DNA of 64,000 nucleotides, taken from positions 1,798,001-1,862,000 of the forward strand of contig NZ_BJOR01000001.1 of NCBI RefSeq assembly GCF_006540305.1, given 5' to 3'. Under the pieces are notes generated by a model. The model made no database searches. It was not told where the DNA came from and worked only from the letters and a program-made list of their open reading frames with translations. Positions 31,269 to 48,043 of this stretch are shown one piece after another (position 1 is the stretch's first letter; every line of letters starts with the position of its first letter). The stretch is from Streptomyces sp. 6-11-2 (GTDB lineage Bacteria > Actinomycetota > Actinomycetes > Streptomycetales > Streptomycetaceae). The position numbers and the translations under genes were made by a program.

Positions 31269-32222
31269 TCACCGGATGTCTTCGGCGTCCGGGGACGAGG
31301 CTGCGGCGGTCTGCGTCTCAACGTCGGAGAGAGGGCCGTTGGCCGTGACGATCGAGGTGAGCGGGTAAGGAGGGCCGCTGGTGCCGCAGAGGGTCAGCAG
31401 CGGCATGCCGTCCTCCTGGCGCCGGCCGAGGCAGCTCCACATCTGGCCGTGCCGGTCGACCTGGCCGCGGGCGAGGTCGTAGACGCGGCCTCCCAGAAAG
31501 AACGGCTCGCCGGCGGCCTCCGCGGCTTCGTCGAGGAGGTGAGGCACTTGGTAGGCGGTGAGGTGAACGTCGACGGCGTCGATCCGTCCTGCGGCGGTCT
31601 GGGCCCATCCGGCGCGGTGGGTGGGAGCGTCGAGTGCCGCGCCGATGGCGGTCAGCCAGTACTCCCAGTGGTCGAGCGAGAGGGCGTGGATGTGGATGAC
31701 GACGCGCTCGTGGTCCCAGGTGATGTGCGTGGTCTCGAGCCGGCCTTCGTTCTCGGCCCGCAGCTTGGCGGCCACAGCGGCGGTACGGGCCTGCGCCGGC
31801 GTCCAGTCGGCCGCGCCCTGCTCCTCGGTGCTCGTGGTCCGAGCGGCGGCGGGCCTGATCGCGGGGATCTGCTCTGCGACGGGCACGACGGCCGGCTGCG
31901 GCACACTCGCCGCGGTGTCGGACGCCGGCGGCGCGTCAAGGCCGGTGCCGGGCGGGGCGATCGCGCCACGGAGTGCCGGGGTGGGCGGCTTCGGGCCGGC
32001 GACGGCTTCGGTGACGTCGGCGGCCGGCTGGTCCGTCTCGGGCAGGCCGCGCTGCGCTTCGTCCTGGTCCTGAAGCCGTTTGAGGGCTTCGGCGCCGCCC
32101 GTTTCCACCAGGCGTCCCTGCGCCTGGAGGCTGGCGATGAACCTGCGGGCCAACTGCGCCAGCTGCTCGATCAGTTCGCGCTCGATCTCGACGTCGCCAC
32201 GGCTGTCGGGAGTGGTCGTCAT
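31269..32222 (-). CDS. hypothetical protein, partner of the ECF sigma gene
   Basis: A 317-residue protein I do not recognise. Its ATG at 32222 overlaps the sigma-factor stop by 4 nt (ATGA), so the two are translated together. Residues 1-35 are a predicted helix (IERELIEQLAQLARRFIASLQAQG). Residues ~50-135 are a Pro/Ala-rich disordered linker. Residues ~140-300 form a globular domain (ITWDHERVVIHIHALSLDHWEYWLTAIGA; RVYDLARGQVDRHGQMWSCLGRRQEDGMPLLTLC). No membrane span is visible, so it is not a classical membrane anti-sigma factor, though a soluble anti-sigma or co-regulator role is possible from the coupling. Confidence 0.8.
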   Translation of the reverse strand: MTTTPDSRGDVEIERELIEQLAQLARRFIASLQAQGRLVETGGAEALKRLQDQDEAQRGLPETDQPAADVTEAVAGPKPPTPALRGAIAPPGTGLDAPPASDTAASVPQPAVVPVAEQIPAIRPAAARTTSTEEQGAADWTPAQARTAAVAAKLRAENEGRLETTHITWDHERVVIHIHALSLDHWEYWLTAIGAALDAPTHRAGWAQTAAGRIDAVDVHLTAYQVPHLLDEAAEAAGEPFFLGGRVYDLARGQVDRHGQMWSCLGRRQEDGMPLLTLCGTSGPPYPLTSIVTANGPLSDVETQTAAASSPDAEDIR

Positions 32223-32815
32223 GCTCCCGCCTCCACATAGGCCCTGCGGAGGGAGTCGAGCGCGCGCCACTGCAGGGTCTTGACGGCGGCGTCGGTGGTG
32301 CCCATGGTGCGGGCCGTCTCGCTGACGGACAGTTCGCGGAGGAACCGGAGCCGGATGACGGCCTGTTGACGTGGCGTGATCCCGGACAGGGCGTGGTGCA
32401 GGTCGGCAGCGGCAAGGGTGGACAGGACCGTGTCCTCGGCGGTGCTCACCGGGGTCACCCAGGCGTCCCACACGTGGGTGATCTGGTCCACGAAGGTGAG
32501 CCGCCGTGTCGCGGCGACCTTGAAGTGGTCCGCGACCACGTTGCGGGCGATCGTGCACAGCCAGGCACGGATCGGCGTGCCGGTCCACCGGAAGGTGCCG
32601 ATCTTGGCCCACGCCTTCATGAAGACATCGGCGGTGAGGTCCTCGGCGAGCGTCGGGTTCGATCTGACGCGGAGGCCGATGAACGCGGCGACGACGTCGT
32701 GGTGCATCCGGTACAGCTCGCCGAACGCCTCGGGATCGCCTTGCTGGGCGCGGGTGATGAGGGCCGGTTCCCTCGTTGTGAGGCCGCCGGACACGGCCTG
32801 GGCATGAGAAATCAA
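32219..32815 (-). CDS. ECF-type RNA polymerase sigma factor
   Basis: An alternative sigma factor of up to 198 residues. Region 2 covers about residues 28-100 (EAFGELYRMHHDVVAAFIGLRV, LAEDLTADVFMKAWAKIGTF, PIRAWLCTIARNVVADHFK). Region 4 covers about 130-190 (LSGITPRQQAVIRLRFLRELSVSETARTMGTTDAAVKTLQWRALDSLRRAY). The first start codon is a TTG at 32815; a GTG at 32794 is an alternative. The gene is coupled to the unknown 317-residue gene downstream and lies next to three small HTH genes in an accessory stretch. No SnoaL-like extension is present. Its target promoters cannot be told from here. Confidence 0.9.
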   Translation of the reverse strand: MISHAQAVSGGLTTREPALITRAQQGDPEAFGELYRMHHDVVAAFIGLRVRSNPTLAEDLTADVFMKAWAKIGTFRWTGTPIRAWLCTIARNVVADHFKVAATRRLTFVDQITHVWDAWVTPVSTAEDTVLSTLAAADLHHALSGITPRQQAVIRLRFLRELSVSETARTMGTTDAAVKTLQWRALDSLRRAYVEAGA

Positions 32816-32896
32816 AGCCTGCTTCCGATCGTGAGTGGAGGAACGGTGTCGGGCTGGGTGACGAGGAGAGACCGCCCCCGCGGGCTCCGTGGGCCG

Positions 32897-33181
32897 TCAG
32901 CCGGACCCGCGCCGACGTCCGACTGGAGCGGGCGCCGGCCACCGGCGTGAAGCGGCGGTGCGCCGCGTGGTCAGCGGGTCGTCGTACACGAGAGTGTCGA
33001 GCCCGACCCCGTAGGCGTCGCGCAGCGTCCAGAGCGTGGCCAGGCTCGGTTCTTTCGTCCCGGCCGCGAGTCGGTGGAGCGTCGACCTGCTGATACCGGT
33101 GCGCTGCGCCACGTCGGCAACACTTTCGTCACCAAGCTCCTTGGCCTTCACCAGGAGCTTGGCCATATGGAGGCGGAGCAT
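32897..33181 (-). CDS. small XRE-type helix-turn-helix regulator
   Basis: A 94-residue DNA-binding protein from the ATG at 33181, with AGGGGG about 10 nt upstream. A single HTH_XRE domain fills residues ~15-65 (SVADVAQRTGISRSTLHRLAAGTKEPSLATLWTLRDAYG), ending in a basic tail (TTRRTAASRRW...GRRRGSG). Divergent from the HTH gene at 33402 across a 220-nt AT-richer gap that contains an inverted repeat, a layout seen in phage-like or mobile-element switches. Similar in its HTH to the protein at 39599-39967. Confidence 0.8.
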   Translation of the reverse strand: MLRLHMAKLLVKAKELGDESVADVAQRTGISRSTLHRLAAGTKEPSLATLWTLRDAYGVGLDTLVYDDPLTTRRTAASRRWPAPAPVGRRRGSG

Positions 33182-33878: not shown

Positions 33879-33974
33879 ACCGGATAGCCTCCCTCCTGCC
33901 GCGCCAGGATCAGCGGGTCGGAAATGGTGCGCTGGCGAGAGGGGTAGCAGGTGCTCGTCGTACGAGGAACTTCC

Positions 33975-34214
33975 ATGACCGCTGTCGTCCGCGGCAGCAC
34001 TGGTGAGACGGTGATTCTGCTCCCCGGTGATGCGCGTCAGGAAGTGTCCGAGGCAACATTGACCGATCTGATCAAGGTCGCCAGCGCCGTTCTCAGTGCG
34101 GCCGAACTTCAGACCATCAGCAGGGTTGTCCCCAGGTTGACAATAAGTCAGATGGATTCCTGCGTTTCAGTCGATGGAATGGCGCTGACGGTCTACAGGC
34201 TGACCGTCGACTGA
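33975..34214 (+). CDS. small hypothetical protein
   Basis: A 79-residue protein (MTAVVRGSTGETVILLPGDARQ...SVDGMALTVYRLTVD) from the ATG at 33975 with GAGGA 6 nt upstream. A GTG at 33951 with its own AGAGGGG would give 87 residues. The sequence alternates short beta-like and helical segments and shows no known motif, Cys or membrane span. It follows the HTH gene by about 95 nt and ends before a strong hairpin terminator, so it may be the last gene of that small unit. Confidence 0.6.
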   Translation: MTAVVRGSTGETVILLPGDARQEVSEATLTDLIKVASAVLSAAELQTISRVVPRLTISQMDSCVSVDGMALTVYRLTVD

Positions 34215-35398: not shown

Positions 35399-35611
35399 AT
35401 GAACATGGACCAGCTCGAGGCCGAGACCGCGGAACTGCTGCCCGGCCGGGAGGCGCTGGGGAAGTTCTCGTTCAACTTCACCAAGATGACGAGCATCACT
35501 AAGAAGGCCGCGCACGTGGACGCTCACAACGAGTCGGCCGCGCTGAACCAGTGCTCGCCGTGGGCCGTCGCCCAGTCCGAGGCGCAGCAGGCCATCAGCA
35601 TCCAGCAGTAA
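35399..35611 (+). CDS. precursor-like small peptide of a candidate RiPP locus
   Basis: A 70-residue peptide from the ATG at 35399 with GAAAGGTG about 6 nt upstream. The N-terminal part is acidic and leader-like (MDQLEAETAELLPGREALGKF), an ELLPxREAL-type helix of the sort leader peptides use for recognition. The C-terminal half is polar and Ser/Thr/Gln/Ala-rich (SFNFTKMTSITKK...NQCSPWAV...QAISIQQ) with a single Cys. There is no signal peptide or membrane span. A hairpin follows the stop and then a gene encoding an RRE-like domain fused to an M50 protease, the context expected of a precursor. No classical modifying enzyme (LanB/C/M, YcaO, radical SAM) is adjacent. Confidence 0.8.
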   Translation: MNMDQLEAETAELLPGREALGKFSFNFTKMTSITKKAAHVDAHNESAALNQCSPWAVAQSEAQQAISIQQ

Positions 35612-35625
35612 CACCCGCGGGCGGT

Positions 35626-35659
35626 GTGCAGGGCCAGGTCGACGGACTTGGCCCTGCAC
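35626..35659 (+). terminator. attenuator-like hairpin after the precursor gene
   Basis: A perfect 11-bp stem GTGCAGGGCCA / TGGCCCTGCAC with a 12-nt loop, starting 14 nt after the precursor stop and ending 89 nt before the protease gene. Without a T-run it may act as a partial terminator or RNA stabiliser, giving more precursor than protease mRNA. Confidence 0.7.
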
Positions 35660-35748
35660 CCGCTCCACGCCCGGTATCGCATACGGCACGCCTGTTGTCC
35701 AGTGCTGTGACCATTCGTCAGAACATCAGACGCGCCTTGGAGAAGAGA

Positions 35749-37677
35749 ATGACGGCGTCCGAAGAACACAGCGGCTTCAGAACGCTGGATGTTCAGGTTC
35801 CGCATCCCTGGGACGGGTTCCCACAGGAAGCGGCCGTCAACGGCATGCCGGAGTCATTCACCCACTCGATGCACACCAAGGCCGCCGGCGCCTTCATGCC
35901 GTGGAGCGCCGCGCCCGTTCCCCGGCTGAGCCACGGCTTGCAGACCCTCGGGGAGTACCAGGGATCCGGCTTCACCGAGCGCAAGTACATCGTCCGCCGA
36001 GGTGACGGTCAGGTGATCCAGCTTTCGCGCCTGCTGTACGTCGTCGTGAGCTCCATCGACGGCGTACGCGACGCCGAAGCGATTTCCCATCGGGTGAGTG
36101 GGCGCTACGGGGCTGAAGTCACCACGGAGAACGTCGTCCACCTGGTGGAGCGAAAGCTCACTCCCCTCGGTATCACGGTCCCCTTCGGAGACCTGCCGGA
36201 GGAGCCCTCGGCCCCTCGCTCGGACCTGCTCCTCGCCCTCCGCGGCCACAAAGTGATCTTCCACGAGGCGCAAGTGGCCCGCATCGCCGCCGCGCTCTCC
36301 TGGCTGCACCGGCCACTTGTCGTGGCGTTGACGCTCGCAGGCACCGCGGCCATGGACATCTGGCTTTTCGGTGTTCACGGAGCCATCACGCCCGTGCTGC
36401 AAGTGCTCGAACAGCCACTGTGGATGCTCATCCTCTTCGCGCTGACGGTCGCCTCCCTCGTCTTTCACGAGTTCGGGCACGCGTCGGCCTGCCGGTACAG
36501 CGGGGGCGTACCCGGAAAGATCGGATGCGGCATCTTCCTGATCTGGCCATCCATGTACACGGACGTCACCGACGTGTACCGGATCGGGAAGACCGGCCGC
36601 CTGCGCACCGGACTGGGGGGCGTGTATTTCAACATCATCTTCATGCTGGCCCTCACCGCGGGCTACCTTCTCACGGGCCAGTCCTTCTTCCTTGCCGCGG
36701 TCTACCTCACGCACTTCGAGGTCCTCGAACAGTTGGTGCCGGCGGTGCGGCTCGACGGCTACTACATCCTCGGCGACCTGGCCGGTGTTCCCGACCTGTA
36801 CGGCAAGGTCAAGCCCATCCTGTTGAGCATGCTGCCCGGACGGAGACGCGCCGCCGCAGGTGCGGCCGACCTCAAGCGCTCCGCCCGGATCATCGTGACG
36901 GTGTGGGTCTTGACCATGGTTCCCCTGCTCCTGGCAGAGGCCGCGTACGCCCTGTGGAACCTTCCACGCCTCCTGGCCACCGCACTGCGCAGTCTTTCGG
37001 CCCAATGTCTCGGCACGTACTCGGCGTTCACGGCAGGGCAGTGGGCTGCCGGGCTGGTCGGAGTCATCGGCACGCTCATGCTGCTCTGCCCGATGGCAGG
37101 AGGCGCCTATCTCGCAGGCCGGCTGGCGGCCCGCCTGTACCGCGCCGCCATGAGAGCGACCGAGGGAAAGCCGGCCAAGCGTCTCGTTCTGGCAGCCGCG
37201 GTCGCCGCCGGCTGCGCCATTCTCGGAACCGCCTGGGTGCAGGGGCTCGCGCCCAAGCCCCTTCCCGAATCAGCCCCGGTCACGCCTGTCCTGCAACCCG
37301 GTGTGCCCACCACTCGAGCCCCGCACCCCACCCCCACGGGCTCCCCGGCGGGCCACCCTGCCGGCACCACGCCGGAGAAGCGGGTCACCCGACGCAACAG
37401 CACCTCGTCGCCCCGAACCGTTCCATCCCACTCCGCGGCGGCCCCGCCTGCCCCCTCGGCAACCGCCCCGGCGCCTCACTCCGGCACACCGGCCGCCTCC
37501 ACGGCGGAGGCCGGCCCCACCCCGAGCACACCGGCCGGCAGCACCCCCACCACGCCGTCCCCACGCCCTTCCGAGAGCCGGACAACCTCCGCATCCCCCT
37601 CTCCCCCTCCCTCCGAGTCCGTCACCGCATCCCCCTCACCCTCCGCGACAGCCCCCTCCGGCCCCAGCCCTTCCTGA
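35749..37677 (+). CDS. membrane M50 metalloprotease fused to an N-terminal RRE/PqqD-like domain
   Basis: A 642-residue protein from the ATG at 35749 with GGAGAAG upstream. Residues ~78-145 resemble the PqqD/RRE winged-helix that binds RiPP leader peptides (KYIVRRGDGQVIQLSRLLYVVVSSIDG...VVHLVERKLTPLGI). The body is a polytopic peptidase: HEFGH at residues 240-244 as zinc ligands and catalytic Glu, and LDGYY at 335-339 with the third ligand Asp, as in the 'putative peptide zinc metalloprotease' group. About eight membrane spans lie between 185 and 500. The last ~130 residues form a Pro/Ser/Thr-rich tail, probably outside the cell. Likely cuts and/or exports the upstream peptide. A spacing of 34 nt to the secreted-protein gene supports one operon. 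Confidence 0.88.
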   Translation: MTASEEHSGFRTLDVQVPHPWDGFPQEAAVNGMPESFTHSMHTKAAGAFMPWSAAPVPRLSHGLQTLGEYQGSGFTERKYIVRRGDGQVIQLSRLLYVVVSSIDGVRDAEAISHRVSGRYGAEVTTENVVHLVERKLTPLGITVPFGDLPEEPSAPRSDLLLALRGHKVIFHEAQVARIAAALSWLHRPLVVALTLAGTAAMDIWLFGVHGAITPVLQVLEQPLWMLILFALTVASLVFHEFGHASACRYSGGVPGKIGCGIFLIWPSMYTDVTDVYRIGKTGRLRTGLGGVYFNIIFMLALTAGYLLTGQSFFLAAVYLTHFEVLEQLVPAVRLDGYYILGDLAGVPDLYGKVKPILLSMLPGRRRAAAGAADLKRSARIIVTVWVLTMVPLLLAEAAYALWNLPRLLATALRSLSAQCLGTYSAFTAGQWAAGLVGVIGTLMLLCPMAGGAYLAGRLAARLYRAAMRATEGKPAKRLVLAAAVAAGCAILGTAWVQGLAPKPLPESAPVTPVLQPGVPTTRAPHPTPTGSPAGHPAGTTPEKRVTRRNSTSSPRTVPSHSAAAPPAPSATAPAPHSGTPAASTAEAGPTPSTPAGSTPTTPSPRPSESRTTSASPSPPPSESVTASPSPSATAPSGPSPS

Positions 37678-37710
37678 CCCCGCACACCACCTCATCCGCA
37701 GGAGAGAACG

Positions 37711-38400
37711 ATGAACCACCGCAAGCCTCGTCCCAGGACCTCCTCCAAAACAGCGATCGGCCTCGGCATCGCCGCGACCGCCGGACTGGCCGTGACGGCC
37801 AGTACCACCTCGGCGGGCGCCAGCCCCGGAGGTTCCCGCATCTCCCAGAGCGTCGCCATCGCGGTCGACATGGCGCAGAGCCATGCCAACAGGGCCCACA
37901 GGAACCAGTTCGACGAGTCCTTCAAGATCCACGAATACGGCTCGTCCGTCGCCGTGACGGCGAACAACCGGGCTACGGCGGTATCGTCAGGCTGCTCCAT
38001 CGACGCCCCCTGCCGTTCGATCGCCCTCTCCTACCAGATCGTCACCACGGCCGGCCGAAACGCGCGTCTCATCAACGCCTCCAACATCAGCAGGGGCGTC
38101 AACGAACACTGCCCGGCGTGCGAGACGTTCTCCGGGGCATATCAGTTCATCGTGGCCACGCCACGGGGATTCAGCCTCAGCCGCGAAGGCCGCGGCGAGC
38201 TCGACTCGATCAACCACCAGGTCGAGGCCCTCAAGACGTCTCGTCTGCCGATCTCCCAGGTCACGCAGCAGGCGGACGAGCTGGCCCGCAGGGTGAAAAC
38301 CGTCCTCGACCGTGAGGCGGCCCGTGCGCCCAGGGGTAGCGGGAGCGACGCGTCGGCCGACTTCGCACCGACCGTGACCATGCACCGCTACGTCCGGTAG
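37711..38400 (+). CDS. secreted protein of the RiPP-like operon, function unknown
   Basis: A 229-residue product from the ATG at 37711 with AGGAGAG 4-5 nt upstream. Residues 1-36 are a signal peptide with a basic start and hydrophobic core (TAIGLGIAATAGLAVTAST, cleavage near ASA/GAS). The mature part has a Cys pair (SGCSIDAPCRSIALSYQIVTTAG), a CPAC motif (EHCPACETFSGAYQFIVATP) and a helical C-terminus. The CPAC sequence resembles a CxxC redox motif, but no thioredoxin fold is evident. It could be a substrate, receptor or immunity partner for the exported peptide; this is speculation from position only. Confidence 0.8.
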   Translation: MNHRKPRPRTSSKTAIGLGIAATAGLAVTASTTSAGASPGGSRISQSVAIAVDMAQSHANRAHRNQFDESFKIHEYGSSVAVTANNRATAVSSGCSIDAPCRSIALSYQIVTTAGRNARLINASNISRGVNEHCPACETFSGAYQFIVATPRGFSLSREGRGELDSINHQVEALKTSRLPISQVTQQADELARRVKTVLDREAARAPRGSGSDASADFAPTVTMHRYVR

Positions 38401-38446: not shown

Positions 38447-38477
38447 TGCTGAAATCACGGTCGGGAAGCGAGGTCCA

Positions 38478-38621
38478 GTGAGCAGCGCTCATCTCATGTC
38501 TCCGTCCAAGCTGAAGCAGGCGCAGGCTCGCATCGAAAAGCTGGAGGGCGAGATCGCGGCATGCCGGAAAGCCATTGACCTCATGATGGAAGTGGTGCCC
38601 CCAAAAGACGATACGAAGTGA
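38478..38621 (+). CDS. 47-residue coiled-coil protein, remnant-like IS3 OrfA
   Basis: Reading from the GTG at 38478: a 47-residue protein (VSSAHLMSPSKLKQ, then AQARIEKLEGEIAACRKAIDLMMEVV) whose centre is a short leucine-zipper-like helix, as at the C-terminal end of IS3-family OrfA. The HTH part of OrfA is missing. Its stop overlaps the GTG of the transposase-like gene by 4 nt (GTGA), so the two look translationally coupled rather than linked by the programmed frameshift of active IS3 elements. Confidence 0.6.
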   Translation: MSSAHLMSPSKLKQAQARIEKLEGEIAACRKAIDLMMEVVPPKDDTK

Positions 38622-39370
38622 TTTCCGCGATGGCGGATGACGGCTTCCCGGCACGCGGAATCATTGAGCTGCTCGGCGTCTCGGAGTCCGGCTATTACGC
38701 GTGGCGTGACCGCGTTCCGTCGGCTCGGTCATTGCGGCACGCCTGGCTGACCCGGGTCATTCTCGACATCTACGGCTCATCCGGTTCGACCTTTGGCTAC
38801 CGCCGCATCCGGCAGGAGCTCGGCCGCCGCTACGGCATCAGTGTCAGCCATGGAACGGTGGAGCTTCTCATGGTTCAGGCCGGCATCCGCGGCAGGGCCG
38901 GCAGGCTGCACGAGGGCGCGCCGCCCGCGGTCTCCGAGGTTTCCAACCGGCGCTGGGTCGTCGACGTTTTCACCTACAGAACACCGAAGGGCGCCGTGTC
39001 CGCGGCTGTCGTCCTCGACTCGGCGTCGCATCACCTGGTGAGCTGGAGCGCGGCCCCCGAGGCAAGCGCCTCGCTCATTGATCGCGCCCTCGACAGGGCG
39101 ATTTCTCATGAGGCCGCCATGGAGCAGGCCGCCGGCACCGCCAAAGGCATCCTTACCGGATGCTGTTTCACCAAGCGCGCGCAGGCCCTGAGGCACGGAC
39201 CTGCTCCTGGGACCATCGGCGATTGGTACGAACACGCGCTGGTCGAGGCATTCTGGGAAAGAATGCACCGCGAACTCACGGACCACAACGAAGAGGATGA
39301 TCCGAGAAGACTCGAGAAAAGTCTGGAGACATGGACGTCACACCACCCCTGCCCATCGCCGAAGAATTAA
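38618..39370 (+). CDS. IS3-type OrfB transposase-like protein lacking part of the DDE triad
   Basis: A 250-residue intact frame from the GTG at 38618. The N-terminal HTH_21 (GIIELLGVSESGYYAWRDRVPSAR, STFGYRRIRQELGRRYGISVSHGTVELLM) and the start of the integrase core (NRRWVVDVFTYRTPKG, first Asp kept) are clear. The stretch that normally holds the second Asp (HSDxGxQYTS) is replaced by GILTGCCFTKRAQ, while IGDWYEHALVEAFW keeps the catalytic Glu. The protein ends soon after and lacks the usual C-terminal helices. It should not be an active transposase. No terminal inverted repeats were found. Decay or domestication are both possible. Confidence 0.75.
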   Translation: MISAMADDGFPARGIIELLGVSESGYYAWRDRVPSARSLRHAWLTRVILDIYGSSGSTFGYRRIRQELGRRYGISVSHGTVELLMVQAGIRGRAGRLHEGAPPAVSEVSNRRWVVDVFTYRTPKGAVSAAVVLDSASHHLVSWSAAPEASASLIDRALDRAISHEAAMEQAAGTAKGILTGCCFTKRAQALRHGPAPGTIGDWYEHALVEAFWERMHRELTDHNEEDDPRRLEKSLETWTSHHPCPSPKN

Positions 39371-39567
39371 GAGCCGGAATGGATGCGGGAAGGCCTCTGT
39401 CGGCGACGCAGGCCCATCAAGTGCTGCTGTACTGCGCCCTGGATGCGGCGTGCGTGCCGATGGATCCCCATGGCTTGCAAGCGATTGTCAGGGTGGCAGA
39501 GCTCGACTACGCAACAGTGCGGACACTGATCGACTGGATCAAAACGGCAGGAATGGAGAGGTTTTGA
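39331..39567 (+). CDS. small hypothetical protein overlapping the transposase-like gene
   Basis: A 78-residue predicted all-helical protein (PLPIAEELRAGMDAGRPLSATQAHQVLLYCALDAACVPMD...VRTLIDWIKTAGMERF) from an ATG at 39331, 37 codons of which lie before or across the end of the upstream frame. A GGAG is only 2 nt from the start. No family recognised. It lies in the same direction as the transposase-like pair and just before a tandem repeat. Confidence 0.5.
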   Translation: MDVTPPLPIAEELRAGMDAGRPLSATQAHQVLLYCALDAACVPMDPHGLQAIVRVAELDYATVRTLIDWIKTAGMERF

Positions 39568-39603
39568 TCCACCCTGCTCCAGGATGATCCACCCTGCTCT
39601 AGG
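39565..39603. repeat. tandem 19-nt direct repeat
   Basis: TGATCCACCCTGCTCCAGG (39565-39583) recurs with one change at 39585-39603, at the junction between the convergent small gene and the XRE gene. It may mark an old insertion or duplication boundary. Confidence 0.7.
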
Positions 39604-39967
39604 GCTCCCCCGCCTGCAGCAAGGACTCGACGAGCACAGCCACATGCCGACGGGCCGTGGGGCTGAGCTTCTGCACGCTCGCGATGAGGATCTCCACCTC
39701 CGGATCCGCGATCTCCGGCGCGTTCTCGAAGTAGACATTGACACCTGCGGCCTCGGCCGCTGCGCGCAGCACGGGTGCCACCGGTATGCCCAGGCCTCTG
39801 GCCAGACCCTCCAGCGTGGTCTGCTGAGGCATCTGCGCCAGCTTCGCCGACGTCGCCAGATGGTGAACAGTCGAGCGAGAGATGCCGCCCCGGCGCGCTA
39901 CATCGCTGTAGGACCATCCCTTTTGGTCCAGCTTGTTCTTGATCATTTCCTGCAGTGTGTTGGGCAC
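39599..39967 (-). CDS. XRE-type helix-turn-helix regulator
   Basis: A 122-residue protein from the GTG at 39967 (AGGA about 9 nt upstream). An HTH_XRE domain covers residues ~8-65 (MIKNKLDQKGWSYSDVARRGGISRSTVHHLATSAK...TTLEGLARGLGIPVAPVLRAAAEAAG). The C-terminal ~40 residues (DPEVEILIASVQKLSPTARRHVAVLVESLLQAG) are helical, as in small actinobacterial regulators of the same layout. It closes the accessory stretch and faces the transposase-like genes. Confidence 0.8.
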   Translation of the reverse strand: MPNTLQEMIKNKLDQKGWSYSDVARRGGISRSTVHHLATSAKLAQMPQQTTLEGLARGLGIPVAPVLRAAAEAAGVNVYFENAPEIADPEVEILIASVQKLSPTARRHVAVLVESLLQAGEP

Positions 39968-47733: not shown

Positions 47734-47869
47734 GCGGCGGATATGCACGCCTGGCGCAGCCGGCGGCAGAGCGTGTGAAGAAGGTGTGCGAGGTGGATGG
47801 CAGGACGCCGTTCCCGCTGTCCTCCGCCCACCGGCTGCCGTAGGTTCTTCCCCGGATGAGAGATACACC

Positions 47870-47893
47870 CGCCCACAGGGGACTGTGGGCGGC
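47870..47893 (+). terminator. hairpin between gabT and the PAP2 gene
   Basis: A perfect 10-bp stem CCGCCCACAG / CTGTGGGCGG with a GGGA loop, 137 nt after the gabT stop in a 310-nt gap. The rest of the gap shows no gene. A terminator is likely. Confidence 0.6.
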
Positions 47894-48043
47894 CTCAGGC
47901 CGTAGCCTCCCCAGCTTCGACCTGGTCGTGCCTCGCGCACACACCCGGAACCCACGGGTTCCGGTTCTCCTCAATGATCGGACAGTCGCCCGCCCCAAAC
48001 CCCCCGGGGCGCGCGGCCTTCCGATCCGGACGGTCGCAGACAG

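Follow-up and report, generated by a model that had tools for sequence, protein, structure and literature searches.

A conserved actinobacterial gene set encoding a leader-bearing peptide, an M50 protease with a putative RRE-like domain and a secreted partner

A conserved gene cassette, which encodes a small leader-bearing peptide, a fusion of a recognition-type domain with an M50 protease and a secreted partner, was identified at positions 35399-38400 of the window, that is, the whole stretch of 64,000 nt analyzed, within which all coordinates are given. We suggest, with a probability of roughly 0.6, that the peptide is released unmodified under the guidance of its leader and assembles outside the cell. 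The processing of the peptide through its leader, the RRE (RiPP recognition element) and the M50 protease is well supported and highly probable, and the extracellular beta assembly of the core is put forward tentatively, at somewhat less than even odds. New here are the alternating conservation of the core, a partner predicted to be beta-rich, the weak likeness between core and partner, and the hairpin after the peptide gene.

Gene set and distribution

All three genes are located on the plus strand. The first (35399..35611), with GAAAGG ahead of its ATG, encodes a peptide of 70 aa, in which the leader MNMDQLEAETAELLPGREALGK is followed by the core FSFNF...ISIQQ, the boundary between them being putative. 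The second (35749..37677) encodes an M50 intramembrane metalloprotease of 642 aa from the chosen ATG, which carries a putative RRE-like N-terminal domain at about residues 60-150 (35926..36198), the HEFGH zinc motif (36466..36480), the second metal-binding motif LDGYY (36751..36765) and a long Pro/Ser/Thr tail. The third (37711..38400) encodes the secreted partner of 229 aa, with a signal peptide recognized by eye and a 'CPAC' motif. The initial annotation had placed here a peptide, an M50 protease extended by a further domain at its N terminus, and a Cys-containing protein that is secreted; all of them are present.

Then, could these open reading frames have occurred by chance? A peptide-based scan of genome contigs yielded 35 peptide loci, 32 of which have a protease match (the exceptions are L011, L012 and L035) and 30 a secreted-protein match, that at L012 being only a fragment. 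Since the matches recur across the 35 loci, the three open reading frames are genes rather than chance occurrences. Among the loci without a secreted-protein match, the contigs of L001, L002 and L018 terminate in or at the protease gene and that of L007 a few hundred bases past it, while L011 holds an additional copy of the peptide, some 13 kb away from the L004 cassette. In the retrieved loci, which overlap and were selected for these genes, 98 of 101 leader-motif matches have a HExGH frame within 4 kb downstream; residue shuffles of 20 loci gave no match to the motif.

The peptide, the secreted protein and the close protease are all found in the same 14 of 150 Streptomyces genomes, so that together with the 35-locus scan one conserved cassette is indicated. 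Relatives in Actinospica and Nocardioides retain the gene set, mostly with two peptides, and the Nocardioides-type loci have kept two peptides, the protease and the secreted protein. Tandem peptides occur in 21/35 loci, and three peptides at L096. A sister protease group adjoins peptides with the same leader (EL....E.LP.R) and a different core. The tblastn searches of plasmids added a single complete cassette and a single locus of the sister type. A protease lacking such a peptide would have spoken against the initial annotation; the close protease is accompanied by the peptide in 14/14 genomes, and the sister protease by peptides bearing the same leader in 5/5.

Features of the three proteins

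The searches retrieved 585 peptide homologues at E<=1e-3 and, in a second search, 192 homologous peptides. The part of the peptide previously described as leader-like is near-invariant, with the consensus EL....AELLPGREALG. Between the window-type and sister groups, one leader is combined with different cores, as is expected of a ribosomal precursor with a separable conserved leader and core. The core is kept across genera instead of diversifying, and contains invariant Ser, Asn and Gln residues and no invariant Cys; Gln is the C-terminal residue in 120/120 of the homologues listed. The conserved positions of the core follow a strict alternation (p=2e-5; p=4e-5 for the Nocardioides-type set), whereas the same test gave no alternation for the leader positions (p=0.61). 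At the sequence level, such alternation is the signature of a putative strand-turn-strand unit. No Pfam or NCBIfam family model, including those of rodlins and chaplins, matched the peptide, and, with E values of up to 1 allowed, neither the peptide nor the secreted protein was matched by the Pfam curlin repeat model. The FXSXX-COOH label attached to a few UniRef entries of the peptide is doubtful, because their last residue is Gln and the corresponding model gave no match. By eye, the peptide has no Sec signal.

In the protease, the HExxH and LDG motifs are invariant (the HE.GH columns across 26 sequences) and the hydropathy segments are those of a multi-spanning membrane protein, as expected of the M50 family; the Pro/Ser/Thr tail is probably located outside the cell. 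Among Pfam and NCBIfam models searched with the three cassette proteins, only two M50 models were hit, both below threshold: the daptide type NF041824 (69.8 bits, cut-off 300) and the epipeptide type NF058609 (44 bits, cut-off 225). The latter match begins at residue 224 and therefore excludes the N-terminal domain. Neither the protease nor this domain has a Pfam match, including any Pfam M50 match at E<=1. The alignment of the N-terminal domain to the daptide_HExxH profile is, however, collinear from position 17-20, and the domain is similar to the N termini of daptide proteases (P=2.3e-4); we interpret it as a putative PqqD/RRE-like domain. The structure prediction for it is a low-confidence model. 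Sequence searches against solved structures gave only MJ0392 (E=0.3) for query A2, nothing credible for A3 and A8, and no match for A1.

The model of the secreted partner, with 144 of 229 residues at pLDDT >=90, contains six strands of 12-14 residues, and the protein is thus predicted to be beta-rich; it has four invariant Cys and a predicted C-terminal helical pair. One stretch weakly resembles the peptide core, with a profile score reached by 0/300 and 0/300 permuted nulls. This likeness is absent in the Nocardioides-type set. The Nocardioides-type and window-type secreted families are related (P=4.4e-7). Since nothing significant was returned by Foldseek for the protease or by Foldseek/VIA for the secreted protein, no fold is claimed for either.

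Neighbouring genes and the hairpin

Just past the peptide stop codon lies a strong hairpin (35620..35664, plus strand; -41.6 kcal/mol, z -8.2), and 0/100 shuffles were as strong. A hairpin with z <= -2.2 follows the peptide gene in 16 of the 17 loci tested. It is read as a partial terminator or attenuator, which would allow more peptide than protease to be made.

Neighbour genes were called with a home-made gene caller, which missed the window gene for a conserved small accessory protein of 87 aa (33951..34214, plus strand). Relatives of this protein, which is 53% identical to the L010 copy, are near the peptide in 32/35 loci, and those of an XRE-type HTH regulator (39602..39967, minus strand) in 29/35. 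An ECF sigma factor is found near window-type loci, and in 11/36 loci overall.

As for modification, no tailoring gene common to the clades was found among the 30 neighbour proteins scanned with Pfam, nor in the Nocardioides loci, whose neighbour genes were compared by eye, consistent with the initial annotation, which had noticed no lanthipeptide, YcaO, radical SAM or graspetide enzyme nearby. In the seven sister loci, only the peptides and the protease recur in 7/7; a GNAT-like gene is present in 3/7, and nothing else tailoring-like is shared. The modifying enzyme that a RiPP precursor should be encoded with was therefore found neither among the 30 scanned neighbours nor in the sister loci. 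Judged from the sequences, the cassette has the leader/core organization of RiPPs and may have, in the putative RRE-like domain, their leader recognition, and core modification lends no support to strict membership.

Proposed mechanism, alternatives and known systems

According to the proposed mechanism, the RRE-like N-terminal domain would lie at the inner face of the membrane, bind the conserved leader and bring the junction of leader and core to the HEFGH/LDGYY active site. The protease would remove the leader, and a core of roughly 45-50 aa, modified by no local enzyme, would leave the cell. Outside, the core would most likely fold as a beta-arch of two strands and a turn, with every second residue conserved, and would stack, in many species as a paralogous pair, on or with the Cys-containing, beta-rich secreted partner, while the hairpin would hold peptide output above protease output. 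The initial annotation had proposed an unmodified processed peptide signal or one modified by distant enzymes. The unmodified product agrees with the lack of a modifying gene common to the clades, but nothing found indicates a diffusible signal, whereas the alternating core conservation and the partner predicted to be beta-rich point to beta assembly.

Could the product instead be a peptide signal or a two-peptide bacteriocin, which the M50 protease processes and exports and for which the secreted protein provides immunity or acts as a receptor factor? The small leader peptides, often paired, the patchy occurrence (14/150 genomes) and a plasmid copy would fit, as would the M50 protease EpeP, to which the available text of PMC10885120 ascribes, as a supposition, both the cleavage and the export of an antimicrobial epipeptide. 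However, the core does not diversify, and within the clusters examined the protease is the only membrane protein family that several clades share. Helices are usual for two-peptide bacteriocins, and the alternating core pattern fits beta strands rather than helices. We consider this alternative unlikely.

Likewise improbable is a RiPP of the conventional kind, with a core that distant or clade-specific enzymes modify before the protease removes the leader, as MpaP does in daptides. The nearest named families of the protease are RiPP-maturation M50 proteases, the invariant core Ser, Asn and Gln could be modified, and a methyltransferase and FAD enzymes lie within the shared synteny of one clade, in addition to the GNAT-like gene of some sister loci. 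However, no such gene is common to the clades or the Nocardioides loci, and the core has no invariant Cys. Regulated intramembrane proteolysis, in which a site-2 protease would act on another membrane substrate with the peptide as inhibitor or cofactor, is very improbable: the M50 membership, the XRE regulator and the ECF factor of window-type loci would suit it, but the ECF gene is present in only 11/36 loci and the sister peptides share nothing but the leader, which is what a substrate-recognition element predicts.

If leader-guided release and assembly is correct, the cassette represents a widespread actinobacterial system in which leader recognition serves the proteolytic release of an unmodified peptide, RRE-M50 proteases act outside modified natural products, sister systems combine one leader with exchangeable cores, and leader-guided proteolysis feeding extracellular beta assembly in Streptomyces becomes testable. 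More doubtful is the further suggestion of an actinobacterial extracellular cross-beta structure, built from leader-tagged peptides that bypass Sec, whose subunits are selected and released by the RRE-guided protease and nucleated or capped by the Cys-rich partner with its related unit; RiPP-style leader recognition would then be joined to functional-amyloid biogenesis. In the literature searched, no description of this system, no mention of the leader motifs and no joint occurrence of 'RiPP recognition element' and 'functional amyloid' was found.

Among known systems, daptides resemble the cassette in their multiple small precursors, short leader motif (ELExMEAP, compared with EL....E.LP.R) and an RRE-type domain, putative in the cassette, fused to an intramembrane M50 protease. 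According to the available text of PMC10036551, the daptide MpaP is an RRE-dependent intramembrane peptidase. The RRE assignment in the fusion noticed initially derives from a profile-level resemblance to daptide proteases and the collinear alignment with them; with MpaP as a precedent, an RRE-M50 fusion is not new. However, the daptide dehydrogenase, aminotransferase, methyltransferase and RRE protein are absent among the window and recurring neighbours, whereas they are present at L079, the positive control, as are the two of them scanned at L080; the proteases of these loci score 500 and 433 bits with the daptide model, compared with 69.8 here. In addition, the cassette peptide ends in Gln rather than Thr, and the secreted partner is extra. 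The epipeptide systems (YydH/LiaK/EpeP; PMC10885120, in its available text) also have an M50 protease whose substrate is a small peptide that is exported, as proposed here, but the match to their model leaves out the N-terminal domain, and no radical SAM family was found among the 30 scanned neighbour proteins.

The likeness to curli CsgA/CsgB is one of proposed logic only, i.e., a short strand-turn-strand unit in which conserved polar residues alternate, and a partner with a related unit; the cassette matches no curlin model and its host is monoderm. Curli serve here as an analogy, and the alternation is an indirect sequence signature of possible cross-beta fibrils. Streptomyces rodlins and chaplins are also small secreted paralogue pairs, found on the surface of aerial hyphae, but they differ from the cassette peptide, for which no Sec signal was seen and release by leader and M50 protease is proposed. 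In 7 loci, rodlin-family genes lie on the upstream side of the cassette, past its two accessory genes.

The three genes and their co-occurrence

The three same-strand open reading frames that the initial annotation had proposed as a RiPP-type system were all found intact in the window, encoding a peptide of 70 aa (35399-35611), an M50 protease of 642 aa (35749-37677) and a secreted protein of 229 aa (37711-38400). The genome containing the window is 8.7 Mb in size. Co-occurrence, proposed there as a check, was borne out across 150 genomes of the genus. Peptide and secreted protein (both at E ≤ 1e-3) and close protease (at E < 1e-250) each occur in 14/150, and the 14 are identical for all three, the window's own genome included; two of them (G106 and G117) carry two cassettes each. 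Searching genome contigs with the peptide as query yielded 35 loci from Streptomyces, Actinacidiphila and Actinospica, which overlap the 14 positive genomes in several strains. A protease match is present at 32 of the 35 (absent at L011, L012 and L035) and a secreted-protein match at 30, that at L012 being only a fragment. Where the secreted-protein match is missing, the contigs stop in or at the protease gene (L001, L002 and L018) or a few hundred bases past it (L007), or, at L011, the locus is an additional peptide copy lying about 13 kb away from the cassette of L004.

Tandem peptide genes occur at 21 of the 35 loci, and four further loci have a second peptide copy 6-8 kb off. An 86-aa protein, with no function assigned, and an XRE regulator lie near the peptide in 32/35 and 29/35 loci, respectively. 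Two inverted copies of the 86-aa gene were seen at L013 (708-1995), and at L096 (4920-6177) two such copies flank a small secreted-protein gene. Streptomyces sp. DHE7-1 has one cassette near each end of a 7.8-Mb contig (L004 and L005); the L005 protease match is continuous, and that of L004 is broken across two frames, either because the assembly is faulty there or because this copy is decaying.

Of the 17 loci tested (of 36), 16 have a strong hairpin directly 3' of the final peptide stop codon, with z from -2.2 to -8.2, the exception being L008 (-0.86). The window hairpin (-41.6 kcal/mol) was reached by 0/100 shuffles, and those at L013, L014, L017 and L033 by 1 to 4 of 100. Such a hairpin would raise peptide output above protease output.

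Leader, core and protease

With a profile built from 29 peptides, 585 homologues were retrieved; those that have a name are called 'hypothetical protein', and a few UniRef entries 'FXSXX-COOH'. A broader profile retrieved at least 1549. Among the best 120 of the 585, the leader L..E.AELLPGREALG is almost invariant, the C-terminal residue is Gln in 120/120, and, beyond the F.F of the leader/core boundary, no Cys, aromatic or acidic residue of the core is invariant. Along the core, conserved columns alternate with variable ones, V.A.N.S.A.N..S..A.A.S.A.Q.I.V.Q. By permutation, this alternation of column entropy gives p=2e-5 for the core versus 0.61 for the leader, and a separate set, the best 120 of 192 Nocardioides-type homologues, gives 4e-5 and 0.16; since the members of each set are related to one another (only 7 and 6, respectively, are below 75% identity), these values speak for columns, not for independent lineages. 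In the latter set, Gln is next to last in 119/120, and the named homologues are from Nocardioides.

Conservation at i and i+2 is the pattern expected of beta strands with one conserved face, and two strands with a turn make a beta-arch. Our preferred reading, which is tentative, is that the product may form a beta assembly together with the secreted partner; that it would be a true amyloid is somewhat less likely still. Processing of the leader peptide by the recognition-domain/M50 protease is probable (about 0.8), being well supported by inheritance and homology, and the cassette would operate like RiPP leader processing.

Across 26 protease sequences, neither HE.GH nor LDGY varies. The protease has no Pfam match at E ≤ 1; the nearest NCBIfam model is daptide_HExxH (69.8 bits, cut-off 300), and the LiaK/YydH model gives 44 bits (cut-off 225). 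The former match begins at profile position 17 and therefore covers the segment preceding the membrane part. The daptide protease MpaP is termed an RRE-dependent intramembrane peptidase in PMC10036551. When 14 N-terminal domains, from proteases of the groups described in what follows, were compared as a profile with two daptide proteases, they matched over 70 columns (P=2.3e-4, probability 44%). No Pfam PqqD match was found for this domain. The predicted protease structure is of low confidence (mean pLDDT 62.9, and only about 28-60 in the N-terminal domain, which has a strand-strand-three-helix order), and no fold match was obtained for it.

Hydropathy gives six membrane segments in three window-type proteases versus five in the Nocardioides-type protease of L092. 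These three window-type proteases terminate in a Pro/Ser/Thr tail, and the Nocardioides-type ones (L092 5279-7570, L093 5313-7601 and L094 6683-8899) in a MinD/ParA-like ATPase domain (35-38 bits, under model cut-offs). The simplest topology would place the tail outside and the ATPase domain inside, and the fusion could energise or localise peptide release.

Related systems

A more distant, sister protease is present in 5/150 genomes (G018, G035, G051, G060 and G129; E 1e-91 to 1e-110). Seven sister loci were fetched (L073-L078 and L036 on a S. changanensis plasmid), all with one or two small genes upstream of the protease. Their peptides have the leader EL....[AG]E.LP.R..[LM][SG] in common with the cassette peptides and differ after it, where a linker, in some a Gly/Ser spacer, leads to a two-Cys core; the leader profiles match (P=1.6e-4 and 2.5e-4) in alignments that do not extend past the leader. 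Clustering of called genes left only peptides and protease in 7/7 loci, with a GNAT-like gene in 3/7 and seven other families in two syntenic loci. The sister-peptide search matches the same five genomes and, marginally, G032 (E=0.003), and G129 has an additional copy (L095 5001-5300) with no protease within the 10 kb fetched. Matches occur in 9/296 genomes of the class; outside the window's genus these are G277, G317 and G157, which carry two peptides, a protease and a secreted protein, next to a gene that by eye looks regulator-like. The L092 copy of this gene has no NCBIfam match.

Two of the three most distant proteases (G125 and G122) belong to daptide clusters, and the third is that of G042 (L081). 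The dehydrogenase, aminotransferase, methyltransferase and RRE protein of L079, and the protease, dehydrogenase and aminotransferase of L080, all score above cut-off, and these daptide clusters serve as a useful positive control.

Neighbouring genes

The Pfam scan of neighbours covered thirty proteins, namely ten from the window and representatives of twenty families recurring at other loci. Transport, glycosidase, aldehyde dehydrogenase, aminotransferase and regulator genes were found, and, in single clades, a CMAS-type methyltransferase, FAD and pyridine-nucleotide oxidoreductases, a thiolase, a PLP enzyme and AfsA. Since none of those found among these 30 is common to different clades, they are read as chromosomal synteny. 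The system is not placed in a RiPP class, because a shared modifying gene was sought nearby and not found; the product is likely unmodified, modification by a distantly encoded enzyme being the less probable case.

In seven S. cinnamoneus-clade loci, a rodlin-family cluster lies upstream of the cassette, past the 86-aa accessory gene and the regulator; two rodlin-family proteins of L016 match NF041022 at E 1e-53 and 5e-50. PMC5314377 describes RdlB as a spore-surface functional amyloid. Being confined to one clade, this neighbourhood may be inherited synteny.

In the window, 38470-39600 (+) contains an IS3-like transposase reading frame (38618-39367; 117.5 bits, cut-off 160) with small genes around. 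Several loci have genes of this kind next to the peptide (clusters 21, 6 and 31), which suggests a resident element. About ten window-type loci keep, upstream of the cassette, a BN159_2729-family protein, an ECF sigma factor and an XRE gene (31272-33181, -, in the window), and the Streptomyces sRNA Scr5676 (RF02832) was identified at 47854-47982 (+) of the window with 124.2 bits.
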